This document shows, piece by piece, positions 18,066 to 59,850 of a stretch of 64,000 nucleotides of DNA; the stretch's first letter is position 1; every line of letters begins with the position of its first letter. Made by a program: the position numbers and the translations under genes. Origin of the DNA: Desmodesmus armatus (taxonomy: Eukaryota > Chlorophyta > Chlorophyceae > Sphaeropleales > Scenedesmaceae); contig VIIQ02000600.1 in assembly GCA_007449985.2 (NCBI GenBank), positions 1 through 64,000 of the forward strand. The letters are read 5' to 3'. The notes beneath the pieces were generated by a model. It was not told where the DNA came from. It saw only the letters and a program-made list of their open reading frames with translations, and ran no database searches.

Positions 18066-18218
18066 GTCATCGCATCATTCTGCTGCTATACTGGCTCCAT
18101 GCGTAGCTCCAGGTACGGCCAGCATCGCCACAGTTCCAGTGGCTGCATGCGTCCCCTAGGTACTGTGCGACGGCTGAGGCAGCATTGCCACAGGGCTAGT
18201 GGCTCCATGCGTAAGTCC
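18066..18218. repeat. Triplicated end of the BTB gene
   Basis: On the minus strand the last coding bases and stop (ACGCATGGAGCCACTAG at 18196-18212) plus following sequence are repeated twice downstream as ACGCATGCAGCCACTGGA (near 18150) and ACGCATGGAGCCAGTA (near 18100), with GGCAATGCTG-like spacers. These are tandem copies of about 55-65 bp that span the stop codon. Confidence 0.65.
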
Positions 18219-21200
18219 AGCCCCATTCGCTGTCGGGTATGGGTGTGATATGGTAGCCGTCACTTGACCTGCTGGCCTCTGACATGGTGGCCATGCAGCT
18301 GGCCATGCTGGCAGCCAGCCGGGCACTTGTCTCGGGGCGCAGCACTGACATAGCTGACACCAGGCGGTCATGACCAGTGTACCTGCAGGGCAGGTGATGA
18401 GTGTTTGGAAGATCTATAAGTTGGGTCAGAGCTGAAGGCAAATTCAAACTTGAAGGCCCCAGATTGTTATCACAACACAGCATAGTGTGGTAGTGTGTGC
18501 CAACTCCAACCCAACGACGTGTGCGCTGCACCTGACGTTTTTAGTATGTGTGGCAGGCGGTAAAGTAGTGGCAGCCAGGCCTGTAAGGTAGGCATGATGA
18601 GAAGATCACTGCTGGGGTATTGGGTTCTGACATGTACACACCTGGACTTGTCAGTTGCCCGTGGTGCTCTGCCGCCGCCTGCAGTGGTGCTGAGGACAAT
18701 CTGCTGTATGCAGCGGGACACTACGGCACCAAACCCAGGAACACCCTCTGCAAAAAGAGCAGCAGCAGTAGCCATGACGGCAGCAAGCAGCAACCCTGAG
18801 GGCGAGCCATGATCAGCATGGGGCGCGCAATGTCATCCTGAGCAGTGTTCACCAGCAGTGTTCACGTTCTGGTGGACCACACCAGCACCACCATCCGGAT
18901 TTATGATCCATCAATGTGACGCCAAGCGGTCGAATTCTACTTGTATAGCAACCACCCCAGCTTCCCCTCCCTCACCTGCAATCTTGATCCATTCAAATGC
19001 ATCCAGGTCTATGCTGCCCTCAGAGCCTGTCACTCCCACCACACCACATGTGTAGCGGGGGTTGAGCAGCACGTCCCTGCAGAAAGGCAGCAGACCCTGC
19101 AGCACCAACAGCACCAGCAGCACCAGCAACATTGGTGGCAGCAGCAGTGGCAACAGCAGCGGCAGCAGCACAAGTGAGTCACAGTGTGCGGCAACAGAGT
19201 CGCAGCCCGACCCTACGAACCAGCCAGCAAGCTGCGGGCTCATGTAGGCCTGTATACCCACAGTCCTAGTAGCCTTCATGGCCGCGCATTCGCACCCTGC
19301 TCACACATGCACCCAACACATGCCTCGCAACCCCTAGCCTGCATTGCATGCTTTGTTGGTTCACACTCACACCCTCCCGCCCTCCCCCTCCCATCCCTCA
19401 GGCGGACAAGTACAACCAAGCCCATTTGCATCTTATACTTGCCACCCTGCTGTCATGTGCACCCCAAACGTGCCTTGCAACGCACAACCTGCATTGCATG
19501 CTTTGTTGGTTCGTGCACTACCCCTCCCCCCCTTCTGGTCCAGAATGGCGGCCCAATTTCCCACCTGCATGTTGAACTTGTCAGCCAGGCGCAGCAGTTC
19601 TTTCACAATGCCGACGGTGACCAGGCTAGAAGGGCTGCAGCCCTTGGCAGGGTTTAAGGGGTGCATCAGGCACAGCGCAACACCCCAAGCGTCCGCCTCA
19701 CTGCGACCCTCAACCTGCATGTGCAAGGGGCGCACAAGATGGTTTGTGTAAGGCGCTTGCGGTCATTCAGTTGCATCAGGCACAGTGCAACACCCCACGC
19801 CTCTACCTCACTGCAAACCTCAACCTGCATGCACAAGGGTGATGCCCGGGCAACTTGCTGAATCAGAGGGGCTTGGAATGATTTGTTGTATAAGGCATAT
19901 GTGGTGCTTGAATTGCATCATGCACATCACAGCACATCATGCCTCAAACTGACTGTGCCCTCAACCTTCATACACAAGCGGCGCACAAGGGAAGAGAGGG
20001 TTTACTCCAACGACAAGATAGCTCATGTGGCTTAGGGAGGCGACCCACAGGACATGAGTGCTGTGAGGGAGATTTGATGCAGGAATTGACTTGGCCGAAA
20101 GCATGTTTTTCTGTCTTACGCTTGTCTATGATAGTAGTTGTAAGCCAATCAAGCAACGCACTTGGACTGTTCCACCTTATCAGTTGTTACTCACCTGATT
20201 GTGTGGCAGTTGCCATTGGTGGTGTTTTTTTTGGGGGGGGGGGGGGTGGTCTTGTTTGCCGGTCTTGCTGCAGGTTTTTCTTGCAGGTGTGTCTTCCCAG
20301 TTCATTCCGTGTGGAGAGTACCGCTCAGCGGTGAAAGTATCCACTTGTAACAACCTCCCCCCCCCCCCCAAAAAAATGCCTTACCTGCAGGGGTAGCTCC
20401 GGCCAGTCGCTGCACTCCATCGCTCCTCTCAGCACAGGAGACCACAGCGCCAGCGTGGCCTTGACAGCCTGGGGTTGGGGACAAACACAAGGGTGTGTAG
20501 GAGGTGTACAAGCTACCGTGGATGGTCACCCTCAGTGCGAGGAGTGTGTGACTGTTGACCGCAAGCATGCAAGCTGAGTGACACCCCAGCACACCCCATT
20601 GGTGTCCTGGTCCGCAGTAGCTTGGTGAAACACTAATGTGTGACCCCGTCCCTCCTCGTAACCTCCCCGGCCTCTCCCTCAACTACACCTGCAGCCGTGC
20701 CTGCCAGAACTCCTGGCTGTCATCTGAAAAAACATACATGCCAAGCATATAACCGCACAGCAGTGCCCCTATCGAGTGGGTGGCGCCAACTAGGCCATGG
20801 CCCTAGTCCACCTGCTGGATGTACACGTGCGCGCACTACCACCCCTTACTGACAAACCACCGGGAGTCGTGCCAGACGGACCCCTTGACTGTCATTCAGC
20901 ACCAGATGGTAGTCAGGGGTGCAGCCTGCACACGACACACACAGCCCGGGGGGTTGGGGGGACAGGGCCCAGACACAAGGGCGTGTGGCAGGGTAGAAAC
21001 AAACATGATTACACAAACGCGTGCCGGTCACCCTATCTGTGTGCAGGGGTAAGCTTGAAATGAACTTGATGCAGGCAATGCGTGTGTACAAGCCTGCTTG
21101 CCTGCCCTTCGGTCAATTTGCAGGCAATCTACCACTGCAACATCTTGCCGCTTTATTGGTTTCATACATGTGTCATTCATCGGGACTGTAGTTTGTCAGC

Positions 21201-24600: not shown

Positions 24601-27600
24601 GGGTACGCACACTGTCTGAATTTTGTCAGGCTGGTGCTGCGGACAAACATAATGCTCATGGGCCAGGCAGCACTGGTGTGCAGTAACCTGAGGACAAAGG
24701 GTGGGGTCATTCTGGAAGATTCGAGACATGCACTGTGTAGTTTTCTCTGAGCTGTTGCCAACAGCAGTGCTGCTCGCAAGCGTAGCGCATGTAAGCCTAG
24801 CCAGCACTGGTGCACAGCACCCTGATGACAAAGCATATGTTCAGATAGAGAAATCTCAGGCGTTTTCAGAAGCAAAGCATAATCAGTCTGGTGGCTGGTG
24901 TGGCAGCAGCAGCAGGGCGGTATTGGGTTCAGACTTGTGGTCTGGGAAGGTACGAGTGCAAAGTGGGCTGTGCCACATGCCTCTGATTTTGTACTGTCAG
25001 TCAGTGGGGCAACCCCCCCCTCCCCCCCCCCCATTGGATGCTGCTTTCAGCACACAAGCCTGTTTGCATCCCGGGTAAGGCAATTCTAGGCGTCGCTCAC
25101 GCCCAGAGTCGCCTTAGCCGACATGGGAGCAGGCTTCTGTGCGGGAAGCAGCATCCAAGGGGCAGGCCTGGAGGCATGCATTTTCTGCTTATTCAACGTT
25201 GGTTAATTCAACAAAAATAATCAATAAGAATTCAACAAGAATATTCAATATAAATTTACAAGGAGAGCAGTAATGTACACCAGGGTGACATGTTCATATC
25301 TCCAAGCAAATATCTGCGAGCTCATTGAGCCTAGACCAGCCCAGCCGATGTGTGCACTCCATTTCCCACCACCACTGCTACCGCCACATCCACACTCGGA
25401 AATGGCTGCTTTGTTTGCCCCCCTCGTACAATGCACAGGTGCTCCTGAAGGTCCACTCCGATGTGCTTCCAGCCATGAGCAGCCCCCTGCTGCTGAGTGA
25501 CTTCCTCCCCCCCCCCCTTGCATTTGTTGCAATTGTAGGTCAAGGGGAATGCTTGTAAGTTGTGCATGTGCATTGAGCATCATGCACAACTTACAAGGCT
25601 CCCTGAATGGCTGAAGGCTTGTTTGCATCTTCACCACGGTACCCCCCCACACCCACCCACACACCCACACACACACACACACAAACTGCATGTCCCCTCC
25701 CGCAACAAACAGGTGCTCTTGAAGGTCCACTCAGATGTGCTGCCAGCCATGAGCAGCCCCCTGCTGCTGAGTGACTTCCTCACCCACGCCCTGGACCAAG
25801 GAGGCTTTGAGGGCATGCTGGCCCTCAACGGCTTGTTCACACTCGTCACACGGCACAGCTTTGAGTACCCAGCATTCTATGCGCGCCTGTATGGACTCAT
25901 ATCACCAGAGGCCTTCACCAACAAGCACAGGTAAGCTAAGGGTAAGCTGGGGTTATGTGAGCGTGCTGTTGGGTGGCTTAGGTACGGGGTGGTGGTTGGG
26001 CTGGGGGGGTGGGGCATGGAGGCCTGTGCTGATGCTTCAATCGTTGTCACAGCCTCTCAGTGGTCCTGGTGGTGCTGGCACCTTGTTGTAAGGGTCTGGC
26101 GTGGAGTGCGTTGCATTGCCTGCGCACTGGGCTTAGGCTGAGCAGCCCTCAAGCCCTCAAGCCTGAGCAACTTTCAAGCCCTTCCCAACAGGCACGGCCT
26201 CACAGTGCCCTCTGTTGACCTGCTAGCTCAGACAAGATCAGCTTCATTGCCTGAGGTTGACCGGGTTGTCAGTTTTTGAAGGCACATTGAACCCCCCCCC
26301 TCTCTTTCTGCGATATAATGTTCTATGGAAGCAGGATCTTCCCAAAATAGGTCTTTTCCCCTTCCATTTCCTTTTCCACAGGAAGACATGTAAACGGGAA
26401 TACTGATACATGGCAGGAACACTGCTGACGCTTCCCACTAGTATGATGTCAGGCTTCCGTGCCTTCCTTCCCTTCCTGCCTTCCCTACACCTCGAGCTTC
26501 CCTCCTTCCTTCCCCCCCTTCCTGCCTTCCCTCCACCCTGCCCCAAGGGCCCCTTCCCAACCTTCCCTTCCTTCTTGCCCCCCCCCCCTCCCCAAGCCCC
26601 CTTTCCCAGCCTTCCTTCCTTTCCTGCCTTCCCTCGCCACCCTCCCCTGGCGCCCTTTCCCAACCTTCCTTCCTTTCCTGCATTCCCTCGCCAGTCCCCC
26701 CCCCCCCCATCCCTTTGCCCCCTTTCCCGGCCTTCCTTCCTTCCCTAGCTTCCTTAGCGCCCATTTGCGGCTCATGTAGGCGGTGTGCAGTCACAACTAC
26801 TGCTGCAATTGACAGCTAACCAATGACTGGGTCGCCAAGTTGACACTGCCCAATGTTCCAGCCCAGTGTGCTGCTTGCAATGCTTGCTTGGGAACAGTGC
26901 AATGTGGTGTGAGCGACCTCAACGCCAAGTACTGCTGCACAGTTGTACAGGAATCCGCAGGTTACAAGGCGACAGAGTGTCAAACATGTCAAACAGGGTC
27001 ACCCTGGGCCTTGTGCAGGCCATGACAGTTCTGCCTGCAATGGTGTGTGCATCATTGACCCCACTACAAGCTATTGCAGCAGGCGGCACGTGCCTACTGT
27101 TACAAACCAGCAGCACAGAATTAGAGCAAGTCGCAGAATAGGCTGAGCAAACCAGGGAGAAAATTCGCCAGAGGTGTCACACCCACTACAAGCTAATGCA
27201 GCTGGTGCCGTGCTGCCATGCGTGCCCCTTAAAGTATAAGCCCCACAGTGGGCCCAGTGTACGTCTCAGGGGGGCTCCTCCCCCCCCCCTCCCCGCCCAA
27301 CCCCCCCTTGACCCAGGGGGGCTGCGTCCCCCCGCACCCACCCCCCCCGCCTCCCCCCACTTGCCCCTTCTGCACCTTGGGGGGGCTCAGCCCCCCCAAA
27401 CCCCCCCAAACCCTAAACAGGGGGGCTGCGCCCCCCCGGACCCCCCCCCGCTCTAATCCCTCAACCAGAAATCAGCAACCCTCACAGCTAAACCCCAACA
27501 CCCTCTAACCCCTCCATGGTGTGCGGGTCTGCCAGCCTGGAGTCCGCCGAGCGTCGCAATTCTTGTTGCAGCATGTAGCCAATGCGCCTGGTGGAGGGCA

Positions 27601-30600
27601 GTGGTAGTTTGAGTTTGGGGTGGACCCCTTTCACTTTCATGGTGAAGCTGGGACAATGTCGTGGCCGGTGGAAGTGTGGTTTGTGGACAAGCTGTTCAGC
27701 GTGTATTGTGGTGAAGACATCTCATTCTCACCGTTTTGGCAGCCGTCCGTGCTATGCATGTTGATGGGGTTTGCAATTCATGCATGGGTGAGGCCTAGCG
27801 ACGAGATAGTCGTACAGGCTGCTCCCAACATCTGGGTGTGTTGAGACAACAGCAATGGGTTGCTGCACGATGATTCTCCCATGCTGACTAGAGGAAGGAG
27901 AGAGTGTGGTGGAGTTGGCAATGAGACGGCCACCTACATGTGTGCACACTAGTGACTTGAGTCACGTGTGTGGTGGTGCTGGCGTGCTGCCTGTTGCAAG
28001 CCTTGCCAAGTTAGCGGCATGCCATGCCTGAGGTGCACGTACTGTGTGGTTCTTCAAGTAACCCCCATCTTGCACGCACAGCGCTGGTGTGCCTGACCTG
28101 CTGCCTGCTGGTGGTTTGCAAACATTTTGTCAGCCTGAGTGGGTGGTGATCCATACCATGCACCCCCAATAGGTGCTGCTGGGCGTGGCAATCAAAGCAT
28201 GGATGTTTATAGCCAGGCACAAGCGCAGCTTCAGATACATGAATGAGGCTCGGTTCAGGTTCATGCTGGCCATGCTGGTTTGGCTGGACCACGAAGCCAG
28301 GAGGGATGGTTTCCTGTGAGAGGCTGATTCAGCCTACATGATTACTGGTGGAGGACGTGCCATACTTGATTGGTGGCTGTATCTCAGCGGGGCTAGTAGC
28401 CTAGAGCAGAGTGCTGGGAGGTTGGACAGTGAGGAGCAGGGTGTTGGGAGCTTGGACAAGGAGGGGGATGCTGGTTGCTTGCGTTGTTTGTCTGTGGATA
28501 GTATGTATTATCTATCAGGAATGAAATATCGGCGAAGTATGCTGTGTGGTCTTGTGTGGTCGAGTCTGTGAGATGGTGAAGAGTTGTGCAGAGTCCTGGC
28601 AGGTGCGCGTGCGTGCGTGAAAGACATAGTTTTATGTTGGAACGATGCCAATGTAAGTTTCTGTAATTGTTGACGTACGTGGGAAGTTTGCGTTTCAGGA
28701 ACGTGGGAAGGCAGGAAGACCGGGAAACGCTGGGACCACGGGGCAAGGAACTTCCCGTCTTCTTTCTCAGGATTCTACTTGCTTGTAATCATCCGTCTTT
28801 CTTTCCAAGGAATCAGAACACCAGGAATAGGACGGGACGGAAGGGGATTGGGGAAAGAGAGGCTTCCCTGCAGGCAGACAAGCTTCCCTTCTGCATTTAA
28901 GGAAAAAGACGAGTTCCCCTCTTCCAGAAGGAAATTCAGCCTTCCATAGCTCTATTTGTGCTTTCTGCCCCCGCACCCCGCATCTGGTTTACTTGCAGGT
29001 CTCAGTTTTTCAGGCTGGCCGACATTTTCCTGGCGTCAGGGATGGTCCCAGCCTACACTGCAGCAGCATTTGCCAAGAGGATGGCACGCCTGGCCCTCAC
29101 GGCACCACCAGCAGGTGGGGGGCTGATGGATGCCGTGTGGGGTCAGCAAGCATGTGCTAAAGCAGAATTCAGCATTCAGCTGGTCAGATATTTTAGCATT
29201 TTTGATATCGTGGGGTTTGTCACCCTCACCAAGCAAACCTGCACTAGCCCTCACGGCACCACCAGCAGGTGTGGGGCTGACGGGTGCCTGTGCTCTTGGG
29301 CTGAATGCATGCGGCAAGTTCACCGACACCGGGTATTAGTTTGGGGGAGAGGCACTTGGGTTATCCTAGGGCAGAATACCATACCCAATGCGCACATGCA
29401 TGCTGGTTGCCAGCACGTGTGGCTGGCCAGCAGCCGTGGTGAGTTCGCTAACCTGCTCTGACAACCCAAACCACCGACTTGATTGTTTGCCTCAGGTGTC
29501 CACTGGTTGAAGTTTGTCAAGTGTCGCCTGACATTCTCTTACTGTGTTTGCTCTCCCCCTGTCTCCCTCCGTGTGTCTGCAGGTGCCCTGCTGTCTCTGG
29601 CCTTTGTGCACAACATCATCAGGCGCCACCCAGCATGCACGGTCATGCTGCACAAGCCGACAGCCGCCACTGCTGCTGGCAGCAATGCCGGTGACACCAC
29701 AGCAGCAGCAGCAGCAGCAGCGGCGGTGGCGGGTGTGGATGTGTATGACCCCAGTGAGGCGGACCCTGCCAAGAGCCGTGCTGTTGAGAGCAGCTTGTGG
29801 GAGCTGGAGGCACTCAGGAACCATGCAAGCCCACAGGTGGGTGTGCCTAGCTACCGTGGCATTTTGTGTCTGGTTGCCTCCTTCCTGCGTCCCAACCTCC
29901 GCTCCCACCCTGTCCCTGCTCCGGCCCTCGTCTTTGTTCCCGTGCCTGTTTCCGTCACTACTGTGTGGCTGTCATGTGGGATCTGTGGGTTGGCTACAGC
30001 GTCTTTGTCAGCACACATGACACTGCATCTCCTGCATCACGGTATCATCTGTGTGTGGCAGCAGTGCACACAAAGACGTGCAGTCTGACAACACAACAAC
30101 CCCACAAACGCATTGCTTCCCTGCCATATCGTCCTGCCGCTCTTGCCCTCCACAGGTTGCTGCCATGTGTTAATCTTGGACAAGGACCTAATAGACTGCA
30201 TTCGCACCCATAAGGTTGACCCAGTCTGACACCCATACGTCTTCCTTGTCCTGCCGTACTGTCCTCCTGCTCTGCGTCTACTGGTCGCAGCCATGTGCTC
30301 CATCCTTGACAAGGACCCTGCCGCCTGCCGCTCCATAACCTCCTGCTGCACACATCTGCAGTACACTCTCAAGCTACTCCCGGTCTGAAACATATCCATC
30401 TTACATGTCCTGCTGTACCTCCCTCTGTTATCTTGCCTGCACAGGTTGCAGCAATGTGCTCCATCCTTGACAAGGACCTGTCAGACCGCGTTCGCACCAG
30501 TGAAGTTGACGTGACCCCCCTGCTCACCGCCAGCTACACCTCACTGCTGCAGCAAGAGCTGGGCCGCAAGCTGAGGAGGGGCGTGCCGGTCGCTTTCTAC

Positions 30601-30675
30601 AGCAGCATGCCTGCAGGGCTGTTTGATGCGGGGTTGGTGGGGGAGGACCTGGCTGGGTGGGACTTAGCTGCGTAG
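21655..30675 (+). CDS. NOC4: Nucleolar complex protein 4 homologue
   Basis: Nine exons: 21655-21774, 22017-22109, 22536-22832, 23320-23658, 24056-24262, 25713-25930, 28999-29114, 29583-29836, 30445-30675, summing to 1,875 nt (624 residues), with every splice phase matching. The CBF/Mak21-type domain is clear: LALNGLFTLVTRHSFEYPAF and YARLYGLISPEAF, then FFRLADIFLASGMVPAYTAA, AAFAKRMARLALTAPP, HNIIRRHPACTVMLH, DVYDPSEADPAKSRAVESSL and WELEALRNH. NOC4 works with NOP14 in nucleolar maturation and export of the 40S ribosomal subunit. Algal additions are Ala and Gln/Glu stretches in exons 3, 4 and 8. Intron 1 carries a long CAG repeat (21830-21890) with in-frame stops. Intron 6 is 3 kb and holds several unrelated repeats. 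The start is the Met of MTVLSVKEVRALGDEL. Several introns contain copies of adjoining exon edges. Confidence 0.93.
24330..24850. repeat. Degenerate intronic repeats, period about 130 bp
   Basis: In NOC4 intron 5, variants of CTGGTGTGCAGCAYCCTGAT followed by GACAAAG and, in two cases, CATATGTTCA or GTATGTTCA occur near 24535, 24670 and 24805. The copies are decayed. Confidence 0.55.
25439..25508 (+). repeat. Partial copy of NOC4 exon 6 in intron 5
   Basis: Seventy bases nearly identical to the head of exon 6 (25713-25782), with an intact acceptor (ATGCACAG before GTGCTCCTGAAGGTCC). It reads VLLKVHSDVLPAMSSPLLLS in frame, then runs into poly-C. It has no matching donor, so it is a decoy or pseudo-exon. 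Confidence 0.85.
25552..25597. repeat. Perfect 17-bp-arm hairpin in NOC4 intron 5
   Basis: CTTGTAAGTTGTGCATG at 25552-25568 and its exact reverse complement at 25581-25597, with a 12-base loop. It lies between the exon-copy and the true exon 6. It could fold in the pre-mRNA; function unknown. Confidence 0.85.
26430..26760. repeat. Polypyrimidine tract (CCTTCC family)
   Basis: About 330 bp almost purely C/T on the plus strand, built from CTTCCTTCC and CTTTCCCA words with a loose 50-60 bp periodicity (CCCCTTTCCCAGCCTTCC variants). Homopyrimidine mirror repeats of this kind can form triplex DNA. It lies inside NOC4 intron 6. The frames across it are artefacts. Confidence 0.85.
26825..27150 (+). 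other. Coding-like Cys-rich fragment inside NOC4 intron 6
   Basis: One plus-strand frame gives NVPAQCAACNACLGTVQCG, NAKYCCTVVQESAGYKATEC and QTCQTGSPW. A different frame at 27015-27145 gives ACNGVCIIDPTTSYCSRRHV. Regular cysteine spacing suggests remains of a secreted or extracellular-matrix-type gene. No start, stop or splice structure is clear. Family not recognised; it may be a nested gene fragment. Confidence 0.3.
27265..27450. repeat. GC palindromes of G-run/C-run type
   Basis: Several imperfect hairpins in which a run of G meets a run of C: GGGGGGCTGCGTCCCCCC near 27315, GGGGGGCTCAGCCCCCCC near 27379 and GGGGGGCTGCGCCCCCCC near 27420, embedded in C-rich sequence. These form strong stems and the G runs could form quadruplexes. 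Located in NOC4 intron 6. Confidence 0.8.
29091..29297 (+). repeat. Copy of NOC4 exon 7 tail and donor in intron 7
   Basis: The last 24 bases of exon 7 with the donor and following intron (29091-29140, CTCACGGCACCACCAGCAGG) recur at 29246-29296 with a few changes, including the GCAGGTG donor. The copy is about 155 bp downstream. Confidence 0.75.
30156..30444 (+). repeat. Two decayed copies of NOC4 exon 9 head in intron 8
   Basis: The intron end plus exon-9 head (from 30445) is preceded by copies starting at 30156 and 30284. Both keep a CAG acceptor-like border and GCAGCCATGTGCTCCATCCT or a variant. The first copy has an in-frame stop. The flanking TGTCCTGCCGTAC-like intron sequence is also repeated, so the unit is about 130-160 bp. 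Confidence 0.75.
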
Positions 30676-30742
30676 CCGGTGATGGTGTTGTGTGAGGATG
30701 TGCCGGTCGCCTACTATAGCAGCATGCCTATATGCAACTATA

Positions 30743-30747: not shown

Positions 30748-33587
30748 CGAACTCTGGTTCGGTCCAAGGTTTCAGGGCACAGGCATCTACCGTCACAAGT
30801 CAATTAGGATACCGTTTTTTTTGCAGTTTTTTGTAATGCTAAAGAGGCAGGGATGCTGGCTGACTACGAATGACTGCTGGTTTGGTGGTGTGCTGTATCG
30901 AGTGGCCGCAGCTGCAAAGCCATACCAGTAAGGCCCTTACTGGCCATCGGATGGCCGCAACTGGAGAGCGTCGTTCAGGACCAACATGTCCTTACAGCTG
31001 TTGTCACAGTGTGTACGCAGACAGCATGTTGTCACGATGTGCCGCTGGTTGTGAAGTGCCCTCATGTATTGCGTCTGCCCCTGTCTCTGCAGCTGCAACT
31101 TTGCCACATTGTCTCACGACTCTCTCTGTACACCTATGGAAAAGGACATCTGCACCAACAACATCCAGTAATCTCAATCCTTCGTTTGACAAGCACATGC
31201 TAGATGCTGCTGGCGCTGCATGAGACAGTGACCTGGCTGCTACCGCTGCTGCTGCGCAAATCCTGCAACGCCCCCCGGATTGCCAGCACACCTGTGAGGG
31301 TTCAACTCCCAGCCATGGCCAATGGCGCTAATGTGGTACACGTTACACAAGCGGCACAGTAGCTGCCTTCACGCCCTGATTGACACATACACACGCCAGG
31401 CTCGGCCAGGCACCTGCAGCCAATGGGCCGGCATGCAGGCAGACCTTGCAGACGACACGGCTTGAGGTACTGCGCTCCACTGCAGTGCTACACGGCTTGT
31501 TTGCAGCCAAAAACTGCAAGCATGCTTGAATGGATACAGGGCAGCGGCTGTTTGCGGCGCGCTGTGCTGAAACAATGGGCTGCCTTCTCAGTGAAAGGCA
31601 GCAGGCGCAGTGCGAGCAGCACTCCACACACCCATGACCAGCGGCCAGGTCAGCGACACGATACTGAGGCTGCAGCTACTGTCATGGCAACACTTGCACA
31701 TGCAGGCATCATGAGCCCTCAACCAAAGAACGCAGGGTGAAAAGCTCCATCTAATGTGTGCAGCACAAGCCCCAGTTGTGCAGAGCAGATATGCACGGTT
31801 CTGCCGGGCTAGCAGTACCTACAGCACCTACAGCACACCCCTACCGCTGCACTGGATGCTTGCATAACACTATACACTGGAAGTTCCAAAGCAAAGGGAC
31901 AAGCAAGCACCCCAAGCCCCTACAGGCGATACAAGTCAACCTCGTGTCTGCCCTTCCACCAGCCAGCATGCTAAGAACGGAGCATGCAGTCGGAGCATGC
32001 AGTCGTGCAGGAGTTGCCTCCAGACCAATAAAGTGTCTTGCTGTCACAGCAACGCATCTTCGCCCCTGTCCACAACCACTGGAGCAAGGTACTGACACTC
32101 ATGCGCTCTGGTATGCACGCTGTGAGGTGGCATGCAGAAGTATACAGCAGCGGACTGCTGCGGGCGCAGGGGGAAACACCTGGCTACATGAGTGCTGTCA
32201 GTAAACAACCACGACATGCATGACAATGCCCTGGGCCCAGTTCCCTGATAGCCCATAGCCAGAAATCAGGCATCAATGCGAGTATCATGGGACAACACAT
32301 AGGACAACACTGACTCGACAACATGCAGGCTGAAGCTGCTGCACCTGAAATGTGCATGATTCAGCTAAACGTACACTCACCATCGTCACTGGGATGTGAT
32401 GCACTACGGCTTGTACCATGTCCCTACTGTACTGTCTGCCTTCTCACATACACACACCACTGATGCTACAACACACTGACAATCACTCAAGAGCAAGAGA
32501 GGGAGGGCGGCAGCCCTAGACAACCCTGCTGCTGCTGCTGCCAAACACAGCATAAGCCATTCAGGACAAATCACCCATCGAGTCGCCCCGCCCCAGACCC
32601 CCCCCCCAAAAACACACGCACTGGCAATGACACTCCGCTGTGCAGCTGCAGCTTGACTATCCCTCCCTAAAGGATCCTTGACACAGCAGGAGAACACATG
32701 TAGACAAACAGACACTGCGCAATGAAGCATGCCCAGGAAGTGCACAAGCCGCCACACCACGTAACTGCACCCTATGTGTGTGGTCAGCAGCCTCAAAGCA
32801 ATTGCACTACAAGCCATGCAAGGGCTTGAAAAACAACAGTGTCTGACATACAGATTCACAACACCAACATGCAGCCCCCAGGGCGTTGTGCCCAGGCACA
32901 CGAGCCACACACACATCACACATTACAGCATCACACTCAGCCGCTTGAATGCTAGTTGAATGGCCCTGATCCCTCTCTGCTGAACCACAACATCGATGCC
33001 AAGACTTCTCAGGACTTGGTGAAGCTGAGTATGGCAAAGACCAATGCAGCTGCACTGGCAGCAGCGCAGCAGGGGGCTGCGTATATGGGATCCAAGCCAC
33101 CTGCAGACTCACGCCCTCACATACACACAGCAAGCAAGGCCTCGCATGCACACAGTAACCAAGCAGCTAGCTACCTGTTGGCACAGGCTGCAGCTAGTTG
33201 CTGCAGCCAAGCACTGCGACGTTGCGCAAACCGCACAGCCTCACTGTGCCCCACTACAGCACCTAAACCTGCTGGTTTCTGCTGCAGAAAGAATGCACGC
33301 AAGGTGCAGAGGTACACATCACACCGGGCAGGACTTCCTGCTGGTGATCTGCAGATGGTTGCATGCACTGCACGGTTGCTGCCACAAGTCTGTGCTCACA
33401 ACAGACTGTGAGGCCAGCCTGCCACTGCAGCTGCCGCACCCATCCTGCACAGCAGCCTTGCAACAGAAGTGCACACACACTTCCTGATGCTGCCACCGCA
33501 CTGGCTGTTGCTATCACTGTGATGCCCATTCCACTCCTTCGCCAGCAGCAGCTGCAGCCATTGTCAACAGCCACACCAAAGCCACAG
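30748..33587. other. Gap between convergent NOC4 and paladin genes
   Basis: About 2.8 kb with no supported gene. A minus-strand TGTAA (complement at 32923-32927) could serve the paladin gene, giving a 3' UTR of about 760 nt. The plus-strand frame at 32956-33107 (NIDAKTSQDLVKLSMAKTNA) is the most protein-like stretch and may be an eroded exon or element fragment. Confidence 0.4.
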
Positions 33588-33717
33588 GTGCGGAGCACAG
33601 TAGCCTCAGCAGCCTCAGCAGCTCAAGTGTTGAGGTTGGCGTGGCAAACCCACAGGTGCAGGGCACTGCAGCCTCAGCAGCTGCTGCTCATGTGTTGAGG
33701 TTGGCGTGGCTAAGCAG
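33588..33717. repeat. Tandem duplication spanning the paladin stop codon
   Basis: Two units of about 65 bp (33588-33652 and 33653-33717), both containing GTTGAGGTTGGCGTGGC and a CAGCCTCAGCAG-type segment. The real last codons and stop (33688-33722 on the minus strand) lie in one unit; the other is a downstream copy. Confidence 0.7.
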
Positions 33718-42131: not shown

Positions 42132-42177
<46 letters not shown>

Positions 42178-45100
42178 GGCAGATGGACAGGGCGCACTCA
42201 GCACACAGCCACACTGTTGTCCAAACCTAGGACTAAGTATCAAAGATGCTGCTGGTGCTTACAGGCAAGGCTGACAAAAGGCATCCAAGCGGCAAACCCC
42301 TCAGATTGGGCAGCAGCAGGCAGCAACACATAGCACTGGTTGGGGCAAGGGGAGCTGCTCTTGCAACTGCTGCAGCGTCCGCCCATTCACAACAGTAAAG
42401 GCAGCAGCACTGTCAAGCTCAGGACACCTGCTCGGCACCGCCTGCCCCTCCCATATGAATGTTCGCCTGCCCTCCCCTCCCCCCCCAAAAAGCCCTAACA
42501 GCTGTCCCTGACTGAGGCTCCAGCTGTCACCTGGGCTACGTTGCAAGCTCCACACCCACCTGGTTGTGCACCTCCTCCTCCTCCTCCTCAAACTCCCTGT
42601 CCCTGTGAGCACTGTCCAGCATGGTGGGGGGCAGCGTGGCTGCAGGAATGTGCAGCTCCAACGCAGCCAGGGGTTGCTGCAAGGAAAGGGATGCACAGCA
42701 GGCATGGACATGGACAGGTCAGCAACACTCAAGTCATCAGATCAGCAGGCGGTAGGCGGGCACCGCGGCGGGGAATACGGCAGCGTGTAAAGCTCGGCCC
42801 GTGCGTACCAAGGGGCGACGTGCAATTATGCAGCCCAGCACGCAGGCGCAGGCACCAAAATACAACCTATGAACGATGCACAGCCCTGCTCTGAGATTGA
42901 CACACCCCGCCCGCTACAAAATGTAACCCGCCACAGCACGCACTGCAGCAATCCAAGACCGCTGCCTCGTCCTCCACATACTCCTTGCATCAACATATAC
43001 AAAGCACACACGGACACATCCACCTTCCCCCTAGCAGTAGCAGCAGCAGCAGCAGTAGCAGCAGCAACAGCAGCAGCAGCAGCACTCACCGCCGTAGCAT
43101 TCTGCTGAACACGCTGCGCAGCTCAGGGCGCCTCTCCATCCATGTCTGGAAGGTACAATGGCTGGGGCTGCAGGGGTCAAAGTGGCCCGACCAAGACAGG
43201 TAGGCTGAGAAGGCTATCAGCATTGCGTACCTGCACACAACAAAACACACAGGGGTCAGCATGCGGTGCAGCAGCCATGAAATCACAGAGTTGGTCTGTG
43301 ACGAATGTTTCACTTTCTTTCTTTCTAGAAACACAGCAGAAACAGGCATACACACCCGCATTCTTCCACATAACTGACTGTAAGGGATATTTAAAAAAAG
43401 AGCGAGCACTCGATGCAGCAATGTCGTACATTCTCCCCCCCTCCCCCCCCCAGACCAATCACTGTGACATCCTTGCAACCACACCTCCCCTGCCCCCCCC
43501 CCCTTCTCCCCCCTCACCTCTCCAGGTACTCAATGCACACAGCCATGAGTGTTGCCCTCCTGCTCTCCTTGGTCTCAGCCATCAGCCGGCCACGGTAGGT
43601 AGCTATGGCCTCACGAAGGTTCTACACACAGCCACACGCGCACATGCAACACAGGGTGGGGGTGTCATGCAGATATGGACAAACACACAGGACATGGAGA
43701 GTTGGCAACTGTGTTGTGAGCACGTCTGCCACAGCAGCCGTTGCCAGTGGCGTCTCTCTGCCAGCAGTAGCTGCCAGTTGGGACTCTTTCTGTGCCAGCT
43801 GCATCACAGCAGGATGTATGCTGAGCCCCACAGTCATACTGACCCATGGCCTGCTGCTGTCTAGGAGGTGTCTAGGAGGTGTCTAGGAGGCCACAGCCCA
43901 CTTGATCCCCTCCCGCAGCACTCCCAGCTGTACAGACACACCCTCTGGACGTTCGACATGCATCCAGCATGGTGTGCAATGCGATCCTGCGCCCCACCCA
44001 CAGCCTTCACAACACCTCCCCTCCCAAACCGCACTCGTGATGTGGGCCCCACGTCACGACCCACCTGCATTGCCAAGCAGGCATCCAGGTGTCCAGGATG
44101 TCCATGCCATTCAACCATTCAACCCATCACATGCCCCCCCCCCCCCCCCCCCCCCCGCGCGCACACCCACCAAGCCCCACCCCCTTTCTGTACATCACTT
44201 CCCTTCAAAAAACCCACAGCAACCCCCAACCCCGAATACAGTACAGCACAGGGATGGGGGACATAGTCCCATCCTCTGCACTAGCCAGCTAGCCAAGGAG
44301 TCATGAGGGTGCCCGCAGGGCAATTATGTCGTACCCCAGTCTCTCAGGTCAGTACATGTGTCCACAGCTGCCAAGCCCACCTGCATTGCTGAGCAGGCAT
44401 CCAGCACAGTGTCCAGAATGACCTTGCCGATCACCCCCTTCTCCAGCACCCTCAGCAGGCTGCGCACCACGCCATACAGACCCGCCTTGAGCTTGGCATC
44501 CACACTGCCTGCTGCTGCTGTGGGGGTCACTGCACCACTGCTGCTGCTGATGCGGGTGCTCTTCAGAGACGAGGTGAACCACTCGGGCACAGGGATACTG
44601 GGGAGGGGAATGTGGCAGAGCAGGGGGGGGGTGTCAGGGTGTGACTATGCAGGGGCAAGGTGAACAAATCCAGAACAGTGACTAGGTGGAGGAGAAGGGA
44701 GGGCTATAAGCCCAGAGGGCATCAAACTTGAGAGGGAGTATGAGCAATGCGTGGTCAAGCTTTTCAACAACACCCACCTGTACGCGCCCCCATCTGCTGC
44801 TGCATCAGAAGCCGCATTCCCATTAGCACCGAGGCCTGATGCATGTATATTCAGCTCCTGCTGCTGCTGGTACTCAACACCCTCCATAGCCTCTGCCCCC
44901 TGCTGCTGCTGCTGTAGGCGCTGCTGGTGCTTGACGTGTGGTGGGACTGCAGAGGGTGCCTGGCTGCCAGTGGGGAATGCACCCAGACGCTTCAGCAGCA
45001 CAAGGGTGGCGATGACCATACCTGCAGCAGCAGCAACCAAAGCAGAGGCAGCAGCAGCAGCAGCAGTCAAAGCCAAAGCATTCAGCAGTGTGACAACCCC

Positions 45101-48100
45101 ATCCTGCTTATCATGTACAGGAGCGTTGTCAATAGGCAGATGGCAGCTGCCAGTCATGCTGCTTGCTCAGCCAGCAGCTGTTGAGCAGCTATTGCGCATT
45201 CCAGCTGGCCCGCCTTCCCGCCCCAGTGGTGCATTCACAGTGCATTCACACCGTCTTTCCAACCCCCGCCCCCCAGCCCCACCCCCAGATTTTACCAGTG
45301 GTGGTGCGTCCGCGGCCCATCTGGCAGTTGAACATGAGTGCTGCATTGAGGGGCACGTCCCACAAGCGGCGGATGAGCAGCTCAAAGTCTGACTCCTTAG
45401 GGGCCTTCTCATCAGTGATGGGCACACGCGTGTAGTCCTGCGCACACATACAACCAGCAGTGAAGTTACTTATGTCAGCTGGGTGCCAAACTGCTGAAAG
45501 CAGCAAACTATCTGGAACTACTCTCCCTCAGCGTCATCCTCTTTAGCAGCGGCAACGTCCCCTGTCCTTCTCGCCTAATCCACTTCTCCGACCCTTCCCC
45601 AGAACCAGGCTGAAGCTACTGCTGCAGCTGTTGCTACTTGTGCTGGTGTACGTGCACAAGGGAGGAGAGGCACCAATCAGCAGCTGAATTCACTGCTCAG
45701 CAGCTGCGCTATGTCCCGTGTGCTACTGGGTGCTGCTCCTACCACGTCGTATCCATCCTCCTGCAGCTCCTTGTACACCTCCAGGGTGTCTGCACGTCAC
45801 TCTCAGTCACAGGCACCCACACGTCAATCACCTGCAGCAGTGGCGGCAGCGACAGTGGCGGCGGCGGCAGAGGCAGCGGCAACAGCATGAGCATCGGGGC
45901 GGCGCCAGCAGCTGCAGCATTGGGCCCCAGCTTGCTTGCATGCTCTCATGCCCCCAGTACCCATGCCCTGTGCAAACATACTGCCCATATTCTAAGCCTG
46001 AAACATCTGCTCCCCATACCACCGCTGTAGCAGCAGCTGCTGCGCATTCATGCCCCATGCGTTCATGGCCCATGCATGTGTCTCACGTTCATGTCGTCGT
46101 CCTCCTCAGTCACCAGGATGTGCTGCTCATATCGTGCAGCCTCCCGCAGCACATCCGCCTTTAACCGAGCCTCCATAGCCTCAACACGGCTGCGGTCAAT
46201 GCCTGCAGCACAAGACACACAAGGGAACAGAGAGCAGTTGGGTGAGTTGAAAAAATGCAAATTTTGCACACCTGGCCTCCACAGGGGTGCGGTCGATGCC
46301 TGCAGCATGACACACAAGAAACAAGAAGGCAGATAGTTCGATTATCAGCACTTGAGTCACTTTTCTGCACCCACGGTCTCGACATTGCCTGCCGGGGACA
46401 TACAACGAACACAAACATGAGGACCAGGACATACAACAGTGTGGTTGTCTGACGTTTGAAGATCACTCCTGCACCCATGGCTTCCACAGTGCTGCAGTCA
46501 ACCCCTCCTGGAACCAGGGACGACGACATTTCAAGCAACATGTACAGCAGCGTGGGTGCAAAAACAGGCAATTCCGAGGAGGCCCAACAGCCCACCATCC
46601 AAATCGAGACTCGACCATTTGCCTTCTAGCTGCACCCAAGTGCCCCTCAGCACTGGGCGCGCCTGCGTACACCACCCAAACCAACACCCCACTACTTGCC
46701 TCTCTACTTGCCCTCTGTCTGCACCCATGTGCCCCTCAGCACTGCACGCACCTGCATACCCCACCACCCAAACCAACACCCCACTACTTGCCTCTCTACT
46801 TGCCCTCTGTCTGCACCCATGTGTCCCTCAGCACTGCACGCACCTGCATACCCCACCACCCAAACCAACACCCCACTACTTGCCTCTCTACTTGCCCTCT
46901 GTCTGCACCCATGTGCCCCTCAGCACTGCACGCACCTGCATACCCCACCACCCAAACCAACACCCCACTACTTGCCTCTCTACTTGCCCTCTGTCTGCAC
47001 CCATGTGTCCCTCAGCACTGCACGCACCTGCATACCCCACCACCCAAACCAACACCCCACTACTTGCCTCTCTACTTGCCCTCTGTCTGCACCCATGTGC
47101 CCCTCAGCACTGCACGCACCTGCATACCCCACCACCCAAACCAACACCCCACTACTTGCCTCTCTACTTGCCCTCTGTCTGCACCCATGTGTCCCTCAGC
47201 ACTGCACGCACCTGTGTACTCCACGTTGCAGAAGGGCTGGTCTGCCTCGCGCACCACGTAGGGCTTGCCGTTGATGTACAGCACAGGCTCCTCACGCATG
47301 TTGTGCCACAGCACACGCCTCTGACCTGCAGGAGCACAGCACGACACGACACAGCGCAGCACAGGAAGGACGCAGCCTGATGTCACTAACATGATCAGCT
47401 AGGTGGGCAGCACTAGAGCATGAGGCCAATACAGCATGCCAAATCCTCACAGGTGTCCAGCACAATGCCACCTGCTGCGCGCGGGAGCACCCCCACCCCC
47501 CTCGCTCAGCCCGGGCGCTGCCAGCCTGCCAGATGCTGACAACTGCACAATCTGCAGGATTGCACGATTGCCACAGCAGCCCTCAGATCAGCAGCTGCGC
47601 AAAGGATGTGCGCTGCTGCTCCAGGACGCTGTGTACAGCAGAGCATTTGTAATCACTGGGTGCCTGCATTGGCCCTTATATCACCCCATCTGCTAGGAAG
47701 TGAGGTGAGAACGCTGCTGTGATGCCCCTGGAGCAGCCATGCTGCACTCTGCACCAGCAGACACTGCTGTTGCATGCAGTTCACCTTGCAGGAGTTGAAC
47801 TAGGGTTGCAGAGCACTGCTCGTGACCACATGCACTGCACCCCAAGGTCCTGCTGCTGCCACAAAAATTGCAGGACGACAGCAGTGTACTAGATTGTTGG
47901 TTTGCATTACATGCAACCTCGTCAAGGTGACCTGACAGCTGCCATGCATGCCCATGACCATGCTACTGCTCTTGCTGCAAGGAAACAACAGCGCCCAGCA
48001 CAACCCTACGAGACAATCTGGAGAAAACGTTGCTGTATGCGCTCCAACCAGCCGACACTGCTTCAAAGCTCGCATGCCTGATGATGATCGACTTAATTGG

Positions 48101-54658: not shown

Positions 54659-57600
54659 TCATCTCAGCACGTTGACCAGCAGCTCCTGTCCCTCCAGCAC
54701 CATATCCGCCGCCTGGTGGCTGAAGTTCTCCCCAATGAACTTGAACAGTGGGCTGTTCTCCTCCCAGGGGGCCAGCAGCTCCACCCCCTTGGCAATGACT
54801 GTGGCCCAGGCCAGGATGGACAGGTTGTGGAACAGCTTGGTGATGCCACGGTCACCCAGACCCTCCAGTAGGTGGGCAACATCACAACCCTCAGTGTAAA
54901 GTGCCTGCGGCAACACATCAAGCACAAATGCGTCACTGCGAGCTTGTGTGTGGGGGTGAGCAAATGTGATTGGCATGCTTACTACATGCTAGCTATTCAA
55001 ACAATCCCTGTGCTAACACATCAAGCACGAGCATGGGCGTCACTGCGTGCGGGTGTAGGGCGTGTGAGGGACGGCTGGGAAAGAGTGGAAGGCACACCCT
55101 CACGTGAGGGGTGCACCTTGTCCCAAGAGCCATGGTGGCTGCACAGTCACTGTGTGCGCAATTTCGCTCTCAGCGCAACCCTTCTGTACCGCTCTTCCAG
55201 CTTTCTCTCTGCCCCCCGTGCGCCCCCCAGCCCGTGTTCTGTGATGCGAAATCACGCAGACCAAAGCTGCTGGCCCCGCACCTGGTCAAAGTTGGTGGTA
55301 GCCACAAAGATCAGCTCAGCGGCAATGGCCTTGTTCACCACCTGCAGCACCAATGGCACGCAGCAGCAGCAGCAGCGCTCAAGGGATCCACAGCTCAGGG
55401 CCAGGCGCAGGCTTGTGTGGGGAGGGATGGTAAGGGGCACGCTGCTGCACGTGTTGCCTTGCCAGCGCAGCAGCGACACACCCTGTCGGGCTGCAGCGTG
55501 CAGGCAGGAGCGGCAGCTAGGGCTGCTGCTGCACTACATAATCACTGTGCCGCAGCCGTGATGCAAACCCAACAAAGCTGCACCAACAACATGCCTCTGT
55601 TTGAGTGGAACTGAGCCCAACGCCTCTACAGCTATTGCAAACGCAATGGCACACCTGAATGCCGTCACCCAGGGCCCCACTGTAGTCCTCGTTAGCAATG
55701 CAGGCAGTCACCAGCAGCCCAGTGGCCACTGTCTGCATGATCAGGGCCAGGCCGGCTGTGTTGAGGGAGCTCTGACAGGCCTGCGGGGGGGGGGGGGGGG
55801 GGGCAGACACCAAGCAGCAAACAGGGGTAGCACCAGCAGCCAGTAGGTAAACCAATGAGGAGGAGACGCTGCTCAAACTCAGGCATTGGTGTAGGCGACA
55901 GCAGCAACTATAACTGGCCTGTGCGCAGCAACTGAATCTCAATCTGCTGCACAGGCAGCTACAAAGCACTGTGCAGGGGTGCTATACAGCCCCCTACAGC
56001 CCATTCAAATGGCTTCTCCTTGTAGCTTCAGCATCACACTGCCCACCTGCACAAGCCGCTCCTCTGCCTGTGTCAGCACATACTGCTGCTGCTGCTCCTG
56101 CTGCTCCTCCGCCGCCGCTGCCTCCTCATCATCCGTCGACCTGCTGAGAATCGGCAGCGGAATCTTCTGCAGCATCTCAATCCCCTTCCGCGCCGCTACC
56201 GACGCTGCCTCCGCAGACCGCCCCCCTGCACGCTTCGCAACCGCAGCTGTCGTCGTGAAGATACTCTGCAACGCGCTGCCATCCCTGCTGTCCGTCGACC
56301 CTGCTGCTGCTGTGCCGTTCGCACCGTCCGCACCGCTGGCACCGTTCGCGCCGTTGCTGCCGTATGCTGCAATCACGGTATCCGCTGCGCTGCTGAGTGC
56401 TGCTGCTGATGGTCGTCGGCCTGCTGCGGAGTACTGTAGGAGGTAGCTGAAGGCGAGGCGGATAGCCAGGCGGTCGATCATGGGGAGCTCCTCGTCATGT
56501 GCTGCTTCATAGGCGCGCCGTTGGGCTTCCAGTGCACCCTCCACATCATCCAGCGTGGTCCCGTACTTGTTGAGCACATACCTGCAGGGCAGCAGAGCGG
56601 CACACACAGGGTCAAATTTGTTTGTCAACAGGGTTGTGCGCACACATTGTGAAGAATGGTAGCTGTGCGCACCAAAGTTCATATCTTATATTTGCTGTGA
56701 GGAAGAGTGGCGATGACGGGTGGCAAGCCACCTGCGCAGGCGCATGTGCTGATTTGCAGGGAAATCTAGAGTGCAGCAATATGTTATCCCCTGAGTTGGA
56801 TGCCAAATCAAGGGATTACCTCAGTGACTCACCACATGGCTGTTGAGCGCCCCACAGCAGCAGCAAAGAACAGCCCAGAGGCCAAGGTCACCAGGGGGGG
56901 CCACTTGCTGGCAGCTTCCTGCACATGACAACAGAGAGGGGGTAAACAGACAGGCGCCACATGTTGGGATGAAACAAGGAGTGGGCAATGTGCATGTGTG
57001 CGCGCTTTGCTGATGATGAAATGTGCTGACCATGAGGTTCAGGCTCATCCTACCCCCCCCCCCCCCCCCCCCCCTTGACCATGTGCCGCGGCTGGACACC
57101 AAACACAGCAGCAGATGCCCCCCCCCCACACACCCAATAGAAGCATGCACGTTGGAAGGAGCATGTTGACATTCCCGCATTGACATTGCCCAGCCCTGCC
57201 TCCTGACACTCGTTGCACCACCTGCTGGGGAGCCACAGACGGGGGCTCAGCACCCCTCCCGCGTGTCCCAAGGCTTACCAGAGTGGACACGATTGACACA
57301 GTGGTGGCAGCGATGGAGAACTGAGTGAACATCAGACCCAGGCGGTTGATCCCCTGCAGATACAACACCAGGAAATATCATGAATCAACACACCAGGAAT
57401 CACCAGGAAACATCAGGTATCACCAGGAGATAGCAGAAAAAGACTGGATGTGCATCAGGCCCAGGCGTTTGATGCCCTGCAGACAAAACACCCAGAAAAT
57501 AAGAGGGACAGGGAGGAACAATTGGACCAACCGTGAGGGACTAGCACATGACAGCCATTGACACAGACCAGCATAACGCACGTAGGTACATGCCTGATGC

Positions 57601-59850
57601 CTGCATACTCTGAACCGCAGTGCATCAGGCCACCAAATGCCTAAACCCTGACACCCCCACCCCCTACCTGGAGTGTGTGCGCCAGCTGCCACGCAGCCCA
57701 CACAGACCACACCAAACAAAGCTCAGTAACTCATCACCATACAGCACAGCACACAACACCCACCCGTCCCCTCAACCCACAGTCCACATACCCCCCCCCT
57801 CCAACACACACACCTGGAATGTGTATGCCAGCTGTCTGTCCTTGCATGTTGTTGTCTCCACCCTGCTGAAGCTGCTGGCACCAAAGCGCAGCAGGTAGGC
57901 AACCAGCAGGCTGTCAACCCAGCTGGCAACATCACCCACGGTGATGCCGTTGAACAACACCTGCGGGGAAAAGGCGTGTGTGTGTGTGGGTGGGGTGGGG
58001 TGGGGTGGGAGGGGTGCAGGATACGGTACATGTCAAAGGCTTGAAAAGTTGGAAGGCATCACCAATGTGTTGGAGTGTGCGCGCATGCGTGTGTGCTGTC
58101 TGTGAAGGGGTGGGCAATGGGTGCAAATGCACGACAGCACTTGTCGCAACATGAATAGCATGGGTGATGTGAGACCTGCACTGTGCGTAACCGTCAATTT
58201 TGAAACCCCAACTACCCCAACCCTGAATGTGGTAGTCACACCCAGCCGCATACCTCTGGTGCATCCTCCATCTCCATACCGCTGCTGGCTGCCACTGACA
58301 GCGCAATGCCGGCCACTGCCACAGCGATGAAGGCAGTGCTGCAGCCCTTCATGCCCTCAGACAACTCATGGATGATGTCCAACTGCGCATCACAACAGCC
58401 AGCCAGGCACAGGTAGTGGGAGGGTGAGCCATCCGGGACATACACTGCCAGCACTGAATGACACACACGCCTACGCCCTGCCTGCCAGTCTGAACCCTTC
58501 AGCCCTGCCGATGCCACCCGATCATACACATAGTAAACAGTATGCTAGCTACACATGTAACCTCTGTGCCTAAGACATTGCAATGAAGGCAGTGCTGCAG
58601 CCGTTCATGCCCTCAGACAGCTTGTGAATGATGTCCAACTGAAACATACAGCAGCCAACAAGGCAAAACACGGGGGACAGGGTGAGCCAGGCGACAGCAG
58701 AACGAACGCTGCCAGGATAGGAGATCAGGCAAAGCAGGCGCTTCCTGCCTGCCTGTCTGCCACCGTTGTCCCCTGCCAAAACAACCCACCACCATCTTGC
58801 TCCTGTTCCCCTAACCTGGGACCCTTATATTCCTTCACATTCATGCAGAGCACTTCTCAGTGAGGATTGTGTTGTGGTTGGTGTGGTGATATACTTCCTA
58901 CCGTCGTAGCACATCTGACCCAACCCAGCACAGTCGACGCCACCCCAACAGCTGCCTTTACACTGTGCAGTACCCGAAACATGTGGGGTATGGTGGTGAG
59001 GTGACCGAGTGGTATGCTGTGCTTGCCTTCATAGCGTACCACGCAGTCACCCCACCACCAAACCCACATGTTCCTTCCTGCACTTGTCACGCCCCACGTG
59101 CTTGCCTCTCCAGAACTTAGAAGCAGGTGTGCAGCCATGACAAAAGCGCCGTCCCACTGCTTGTCCTTAACCAACACCAAGCACAGGCTTGCGCGGCACC
59201 TTCAACGTGTACCCAAGGTCAGCCAGTGCCCCCCCCCCCCTTGTGACCCACTAACCAAAGGACAGACCCTGATCACCCCCACCCCACCTGCTGCTTCCGG
59301 ACCTGCACCGTACCATAAATACACCCCCCGCCACATTGCCATCCCCCATCACCCTTCTCTTCAGCCCAACAGCTACATAACCCACCTGCTGCTTTTTGAA
59401 CTTGTAGGGGCCCACAAGCTCCCTCTCCAGGAACTCAGCACTCATGATGAGGCTGTCTCCATCAATGCTGCTGGTGGTGAGGTAGGGCCCAGACACACTG
59501 ATGGCAGCAGTAGGCGCCATCCACTGGGGTGGCTTTTTCGGCGCTTTGATGCCATTGCCGCTGCTGCTGCTAGAGCCGCTGCTGCTGTCTGCTGGTGGCT
59601 GTCCGCTGGACCTGCTACTGCTTGAGGAAGATGCTTGAGCACTGTTGGTTGTGAGCTGCTGCACGTTCTGGTACTGCTGCTGTTGTTGAGGGGCTTGCGC
59701 TGCAGGAGGGATGGGTGCTGTGCTGGGGGTGGTTGTGCTGGGCTGCTGCTCCTTTGCTGCTGTCTTGCAGGACACTGCTGGCACCCTGACTGGCCATGTG
59801 CTGAGGGGAGCAGTGGGAGGCTTCCGCCTGTAATGCACAGGTTTCAACAT
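54659..59850 (-). CDS. Multi-pass membrane protein, family not recognised
   Basis: Nine exons: 59386-59850, 58254-58382, 57814-57960, 57279-57353, 56833-56918, 56047-56581, 55655-55780, 55282-55341, 54659-54904. They sum to 1,869 nt (622 residues) with all phases matching. The first 130 residues are Ser/Gln/Pro-rich and start MLKPVHYRRKPPTAPLSTWP, possibly a plastid transit region. Then come LIMSAEFLERELVGPYKFKK, LDIIHELSEGMKGCSTAF with a hydrophobic stretch (VAVAGIALSVAA), LLVAYLLRFGASSFS, FSIAATTVSIVSTL, LVTLASGLFFAAAVG, a long hydrophilic insert (exon 6, poly-Gln and SNGANG repeats), TAGLALIMQTVATGLLVTAC, and a C-terminal LGDRGITKLFHNLSILAWAT with LVNVLR. About four to six membrane segments. 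The start could lie in an upstream exon (about 59900-60020). Function unknown; a plastid location is inference. Confidence 0.7.
55786..55803. repeat. Poly-G run next to a splice acceptor
   Basis: About 18 G on the plus strand, so the minus-strand intron ends in a pure C tract followed by GCAG. It serves as the polypyrimidine tract of membrane-protein exon 7. Confidence 0.9.
57053..57074. repeat. Poly-C run of about 22
   Basis: Uninterrupted C run in the intron between membrane-protein exons 4 and 5. Confidence 0.95.
57451..57481 (-). repeat. Copy of membrane-protein exon 4 head in upstream intron
   Basis: Thirty-one bases with three mismatches to 57329-57359, including the CTGCAG acceptor and GGCATCAAACGCCTGGGCCT. 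It reads GIKRLGLMH where the true exon reads GINRLGLMF. Confidence 0.75.
58578..58644 (-). repeat. Exon-like copy of membrane-protein exon 2 head
   Basis: About 60 bases matching the head of exon 2 (58326-58384). It has a strong acceptor of its own (TATGTTTCAG) and an open frame LDIIHKLSEGMNGCSTAFIA, against LDIIHELSEGMKGCSTAFIA in the true exon. It lies about 260 bp upstream in the intron. Lacking a clear donor it is probably a pseudo-exon, but it could be spliced. Confidence 0.8.

Follow-up and report, generated by a model that had tools for sequence, protein, structure and literature searches.

Short direct duplications across exon edges in the green alga Desmodesmus armatus, probably an ordinary process made visible by exon conservation

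Intron sequence can be added by duplication. Introners do this, and they have many dispersed copies in a genome. Small tandem duplications are said to have been described in rice by Vaughn and Bennetzen in 2014, and in plants by Schiml and colleagues in 2016. According to the parts of Schimmel et al. 2021 (PMC8355091) that bear on the subject, such duplications arise when staggered breaks or paired nicks are repaired. What is reported here for an alga resembles the duplications treated in those parts: they are short, in direct orientation and not confined to genes, and some of the algal junctions have an overlap of 2–4 nt or a small gap. There is also no tie to one class of sequence, as algal rates are similar at splice borders, in introns and in far intergenic DNA, and lower near genes and in exons. 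The alga differs from that account, as far as it extends, in that most of its pairs have a spacer. In addition, the algal case is known from sequence, with no break induced or observed.

Tandem genomic duplication can also lead to intron gain, as set out in the relevant sections of a review (PMC3443670) and of a study of Drosophila cases (PMC2891723). These sections likewise deal with tandem duplications that carry splice signals within genes, where one copy becomes intron. The algal unit, in contrast, spans a border that already exists, and it lengthens an existing intron.

A third relative is tandem exon duplication. The portion of Ivanov & Pervouchine 2022 (PMC9013439) with the coding figures puts its share of coding nucleotides near 2% for human, at 0.08% for fly and at 0.06% for worm. 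Exon sequence is copied into introns of the same gene in both cases, and the copies are unannotated. Compared with what that portion describes, the algal copies are partial, include one edge only, are neutral, and in none of 24 pairs take in a whole exon. In the alga, 1071 of 76,938 coding nucleotides (1.4%) are matched by a nearby non-coding copy of at least 80% identity, a figure that comes from a different method and a small sample including a chosen window, with the retrotransposon ORF of stretch L015 omitted and the exons in the L014 array retained. At most, this suggests that exon-edge copies are plentiful in the alga, despite a median intron length of 341 nt in the predicted gene models. 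A text search, with most of the literature behind paywalls outside its scope, listed no publication that describes such copies as a widespread trait of an alga's genome.

The window is a stretch of 64,000 nucleotides, the first 64 kb of a contig of 797,750 bp, from an assembly of 115.8 Mb in 831 contigs. An earlier note on this window listed 11 places where an exon edge appeared to be copied into nearby non-coding DNA. Ten of these align clearly, and one, at the last exon of the gene labelled BTB, is weak. The window was selected for showing the pattern, and 9 of the 22 exon-derived clusters described below lie inside it. The counts were therefore redone without it. The extra DNA amounts to 252.7 kb, made up of 18 stretches of at most 10 kb (at a fixed position, on 18 contigs) and two blocks of 40 kb. 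Together with the window this gives 316,719 bp (316.7 kb), 5,000 of which are N in stretch L020.

Gene models come from a self-trained gene finder, with the sample alone as training set and without external annotation. It predicts 40 genes with 220 exons, 78.1 kb of coding sequence and 87.0 kb of intron. Splice signals are strong in these models (donor CAG|GTGAG, acceptor TGCAG|G), and the NOC4 exons read by eye are reproduced. Some exons are missed, and two genes in L010 are fused. Pfam supports several parent genes: malic enzyme (L008), Utp12-type and acyl-CoA dehydrogenase (L010), SecA (L011), a paladin-like phosphatase with a PTPlike_phytase domain, and NOC4 with a CBF/Mak21 domain. The L018 model and the L020 exon have no Pfam match. 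For the 'BTB' and 'membrane' models there is no Pfam match at 1e-3 either, and both names are labels taken from the earlier note.

In NOC4, on the plus strand, the acceptor and head of exon 6 (predicted at 25713–25930) are copied into the upstream intron at 25435..25506. This copy is 96% identical over 72 nt to 25709–25780, with a spacer of 202 nt. The tail and donor of exon 7 recur in the downstream intron at 29244..29292 (90% over 50 nt versus 29090–29139). Exon 9 has two copies of its acceptor and head. The one at 30141..30220 is 78% identical to 30431–30510. The other, at 30220..30317, is 77% identical to 30379–30478 and comprises 66 nt of intron and 34 nt of exon, with the AG lost. The end of copy 1 is the start of copy 2, which makes 30219/30220 a head-to-tail junction of units. 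An internal piece of the last exon (30583–30612) has a copy 3' of the stop at 30700..30729, with 90% identity over 30 nt.

The best match of the NOC4 protein is from Tetradesmus obliquus, at 70% identity over the region searched. Exon 6 is continuous in orthologues. Across the five orthologues compared, the tested junctions are continuous and without copies; the exception is P0048, which has a gap at the junction of exons 8 and 9.

The remaining copies of exon edges in the window are on the minus strand. In the BTB-labelled gene, an acceptor and exon head are copied at 19772..19839 (87% over 68 nt versus 19662–19729). A second, more diverged copy of this edge lies at about 19914..19989, with a local score of 57 that none of about 500 random genome stretches equals. 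The possible copy of the end of the last exon, at about 18089..18112, consists of a 24-nt match (p=0.002).

In the paladin gene, the end of the terminal exon with its stop codon is duplicated in a contiguous tandem: 33577..33648 is 83% identical to 33645–33713, at an offset of 68, with an overlap of 4 nt at the junction. The tail and donor of exon 8 are copied at 44060..44116 (80% versus 44376–44436), and the acceptor and head of exon 4 at 46275..46318 (85% versus 46178–46223). The interval noted earlier for exon 4 was longer, and a further copy in the rest of it, 46320–46560, is unsupported (p=0.10). A predicted paladin intron also contains a 92-bp minisatellite of 6.5 copies, at 46619–47224.

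The gene labelled as a membrane protein has a copy of the acceptor and head of exon 2 at 58580..58689, 81% identical to 58324–58431, and here the intron homology goes on, on the side predicted for a tandem. The acceptor edge of exon 4 (parent at about 57330–57377) is copied at about 57453..57501, with a score of 61 that is again reached by none of about 500 random stretches. The spacer adjoining the exon 2 copy holds a 39-nt dispersed repeat, at 58539–58577, which is found in at least 20 other places at 77–97% identity. Some spacers may thus contain insertions.

Duplications of the same kind are also found without any exon. Within intron sequence, 19443..19533 is 81% identical to 19293–19383. 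An intergenic tandem duplication at 8317..9477, with an offset of 541, is 98.7% identical over 623 nt and ends in a GT repeat.

Over the whole sample, 216 local pairs reach 45 bits or more, versus 0 in three order-2 shuffles. This confirms that local duplications, the exon-edge copies included, are real and far above chance. With a cut-off of 40 bits, 68 clusters are obtained. Twenty-two of these are exon-derived, which means that one member is coding, at or near an exon edge, and the other lies in adjacent non-coding DNA; 18 of the 22 cross the edge. From the comparison between exons, introns and intergenic DNA, 16 clusters are excluded (9 coding-coding, 7 low-complexity or array). This leaves 52, with 8 intron-intron and 22 intergenic clusters next to the exon-derived ones.

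Exon-derived clusters turn up in 7 of the 21 sampled stretches, 9 in the window and 13 elsewhere. Divergence between copy and parent is graded, from 0 to 23%. Of 39 predicted genes, 11 carry one or more exon-edge copies with an identity of 80% or higher (the retrotransposon ORF in L015 omitted, and one of the 11 sitting in the L014 array). The view that duplication of graded age recurs therefore holds, also beyond the window. It also holds that the process adds intron DNA.

The copies are local and direct. The search in direct orientation yields the 22 exon-derived clusters, and the matching inverted search yields 23 pairs, none of which touches predicted coding sequence. The inverted pairs are 14 palindromes, 7 pairs in one array in L019 and 2 in an intron of the window. 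Some palindromes in predicted introns are long (window 38575–38736 and 24430–24562, L010 9157–9276, L021 4936–5053), with 118–164 nt aligned and 72–87% self-complementarity; the one at 38575–38736 matches only itself in the genome.

For four regions queried, no other genomic copies of the exon pieces were found, with a search that skips very common words. The NOC4 exon 9 region and the L018 pair match only themselves. The NOC4 exon 6 region matches elsewhere only through its (CA)n stretch and a hairpin, the matched stretch being judged by eye. So intron sequence is gained by duplication here as with introners, but unlike introners, the algal regions queried show no dispersed family.

Mismatches between copy and parent are unevenly spread over the codon. 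In 24 exon-derived pairs (the best of each of 22 clusters plus two second-best, L015 included), they number 26/377, 27/380 and 57/375 at parent codon positions 1, 2 and 3. This is about 7% at the first two positions and about 15% at the third: the copies drift neutrally beside constrained parents. The excess at third positions is to be expected if the copy is neutral and, in the parent, it is mainly the third positions that move. No pair among the 24 copies a whole exon. Of 16 evaluable copies, 13 keep their GT or AG, so that splice-site-like decoys are indeed left behind, as had been proposed. By our estimate, this is roughly what neutral drift at such divergence leads one to expect.

It had also been proposed that duplication is biased towards splice borders, with mid-exon and intergenic controls set as the refutation. 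The test uses windows of 80 bp, with arrays omitted. In the whole sample, a match is found for 20 of 318 splice borders (6.3%), 67 of 1554 windows in intron interiors (4.3%) and 91 of 2364 in far intergenic DNA (3.8%). The rate is lower in intergenic DNA no more than 600 bp away from an exon edge (18/808, 2.2%) and in exon interiors (15/1148, 1.3%), the latter as expected from selection against insertions in coding sequence. By type of border, the matches are 11/157 for acceptors, 9/161 for donors, 2/25 for stops and 0/30 for starts. A decoy control, in a smaller run, gave 1 decoy match in 1949.

Expressed as ratios, splice borders stand at 1.63 relative to far intergenic DNA (95% interval 0.66–3.59), 1.46 relative to intron interiors (1.09–2.18), 2.82 relative to near intergenic DNA (1.16–7.3) and 4.81 relative to exon interiors (3.27–7.75). 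Some of the intron windows are the copies themselves, and border and intron counts are therefore not independent. Outside the window, the rates are 12/209 (5.7%) for splice borders, 46/1079 (4.3%) for intron interiors, 87/2108 (4.1%) for far intergenic DNA, 16/613 (2.6%) for near intergenic DNA and 11/978 (1.1%) for exon interiors. Borders thus differ little in rate from introns and from DNA far from genes, and still less outside the window, which does not bear out the proposed targeting. By this test the duplications are not specific to splice borders, or only weakly so; a weak border bias may exist.

The exon-derived share can also be compared with a simulation of random tandem duplication followed by decay, which gives about 0.25. 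With the window, the share is 22/52 (p=0.006), or 21/51 (p=0.01) without L015. If apparently missed exons are relabelled, a one-way correction made by eye, it becomes 26/51 (p=8e-5, window included). Outside the window, it is 13/39 (p=0.15), or 17/38 after relabelling by eye (p=0.006). Leaving out the window removes most of the exon-derived excess. Among the nine coding-coding clusters, the offset is divisible by 3 in seven, in line with selection inside exons, although seven of the nine are low-complexity or array.

A tandem unit that crosses an exon edge includes intron past that edge. Faint homology is therefore expected beyond the aligned block on that side only. Residual homology at p<=0.1 is present in 8 of 18 spaced pairs on the side predicted for the intron (Fisher 4e-6), versus 2 of 19 on the opposite side (Fisher 0.25). 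These values use position-matched introns as control. The initial control was random genome stretches, which G-rich introns could inflate; with the matched introns, single p-values are weaker and the contrast between the sides is kept. At the level of the group, then, the homology is there. Several high-identity pairs lack it. In two of high identity that cross the edge and have a spacer, no intron homology is found: NOC4 exon 6 (96%) has p=0.23 and L018 8475 (94%) has p=0.99. The copy at L010 4099 is 100% identical over 53 nt; about 100 nt, the donor among them, are then missing, and beyond this gap the intron homology picks up again. Loss of this donor by deletion between two 9-bp repeats was considered and dropped, as the gap in the alignment does not show that end point.

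Eight of the 52 pairs are contiguous; five of these have an overlap of 2–4 nt or a gap of 3–12 nt at the junction, and three overlap further. A spacer of at least 30 nt separates the copies in 43 of 52 pairs, among them 19 of the 22 with an exon-derived member and 24 of the 30 that are non-coding. Simulated plain tandems with decay have such spacers in 7–73% of cases, depending on class and identity. The intron part is at most 25 nt in 17 of 22 exon-derived pairs, versus 22–46% when simulated. Plain tandems would have fewer spacers and a longer intron part, and the excess of spacers is found in non-coding pairs too. Faster intron turnover, later indels, filler at birth and missed exons could each be part of the cause. 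A heavier indel model, with power-law lengths, moves in the right direction and is insufficient. Runs of poly-G/C were also tried as breakpoints and rejected: a run of 8 or more lies within 40 nt of the edge in 6 of 22 copies, versus 4.8 expected.

The best account is probably one of ordinary short direct duplications at random positions, which become visible at exon edges through selection and the slow evolution of exons. Such head-to-tail duplications, with offsets of about 60–680 bp, would arise anywhere in the genome, most likely as staggered breaks or paired nicks are repaired. Within exons, selection would mostly remove them unless they are in frame. If a unit lies across an exon edge, one good splice site would be retained, and the second exon fragment would join the intron or the 3' flank, where it would drift neutrally and presumably go unused in splicing. 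Conservation of the parent would keep the exonic portion of an old duplication recognisable for longer than the intronic one. Therefore it would look as if exon edges and their splice sites were copied on purpose. Points that speak against this account are the surplus of exon-derived pairs over the simulation, the 2.8-fold rate at borders relative to near intergenic DNA, the frequent spacers and the short intron parts.

A duplication process that acts on splice borders as such, perhaps through a link to transcription or splicing, appears improbable. It could explain why, in 17 of 22 cases, similarity reaches no more than 25 nt into the intron, and why exon-derived clusters exceed the simulation, which outside the window they do significantly only after relabelling. 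Against it, border rates are near those of introns and far intergenic DNA. They are nearer still without the window, where the unrelabelled excess is not significant. The same pattern is also found at ends of terminal exons with a stop codon (33577, and L015 2865), and residual intron homology indicates larger units. There is likewise a small chance that a short piece of nearby exon was pasted into a break in an intron, the spacer being original sequence. The high frequency of spacers that measure at least 30 nt, among exon-derived and non-coding pairs alike, would fit such templated insertion. However, none of the 23 inverted pairs contains coding sequence, the residual homology is solely on the side that a tandem predicts, and 18 of 22 parents cross an exon edge, where random pasting would give about one third by a rough estimate.

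That the copies are alternative or mutually exclusive exons under selection is very unlikely. Among the 13 that keep GT or AG, the site score exceeds that of the parent in 7, but no whole exon is covered, the 7% difference at codon positions 1 and 2 is neutral-like, and the NOC4 segments are single in orthologous proteins. An assembly artefact can hardly be credited: the graded divergence and the spread over a third of the stretches (7 of 21) speak against it, and no point in its favour was found, all contigs being from one assembly. It also seems rather doubtful that this lineage duplicates short DNA so frequently that exon-edge fossils, recognisable at about 6% of borders, are a main source of intron growth and decoy splice sites, with a true extra edge bias and an unexplained spacer.

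The duplication is then of an ordinary, known kind, and its density seems high. Exon-edge fossils form a neutral clock within genes, in which every pair records one duplication; the exon serves as the slow reference, and its copy in the intron runs fast. Should the whole genome prove equally dense in copies, the alga would be suited to measuring how much tandem duplication contributes to intron length. It would equally suit the study of how the spliceosome deals with intact decoys a few hundred bases away. Gene annotation is at risk of false extra exons from such copies.

A few places in the sample deserve mention in their own right. The densest 10-kb stretch outside the window is L010, where 3500–9800 holds four exon-derived copies, or five if one relabelling by eye is counted, in a neighbouring pair of genes (acyl-CoA dehydrogenase and Utp12-type). 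In L015, an ORF at 2974–6797 has a reverse-transcriptase domain, and its stop-codon end is duplicated in tandem. The exon without a Pfam match in L020, at 3618–4389, is an ORF that looks like a last exon and is presumably 3-dehydroquinate-synthase-like; its tail is copied on one side, and its head on the other.
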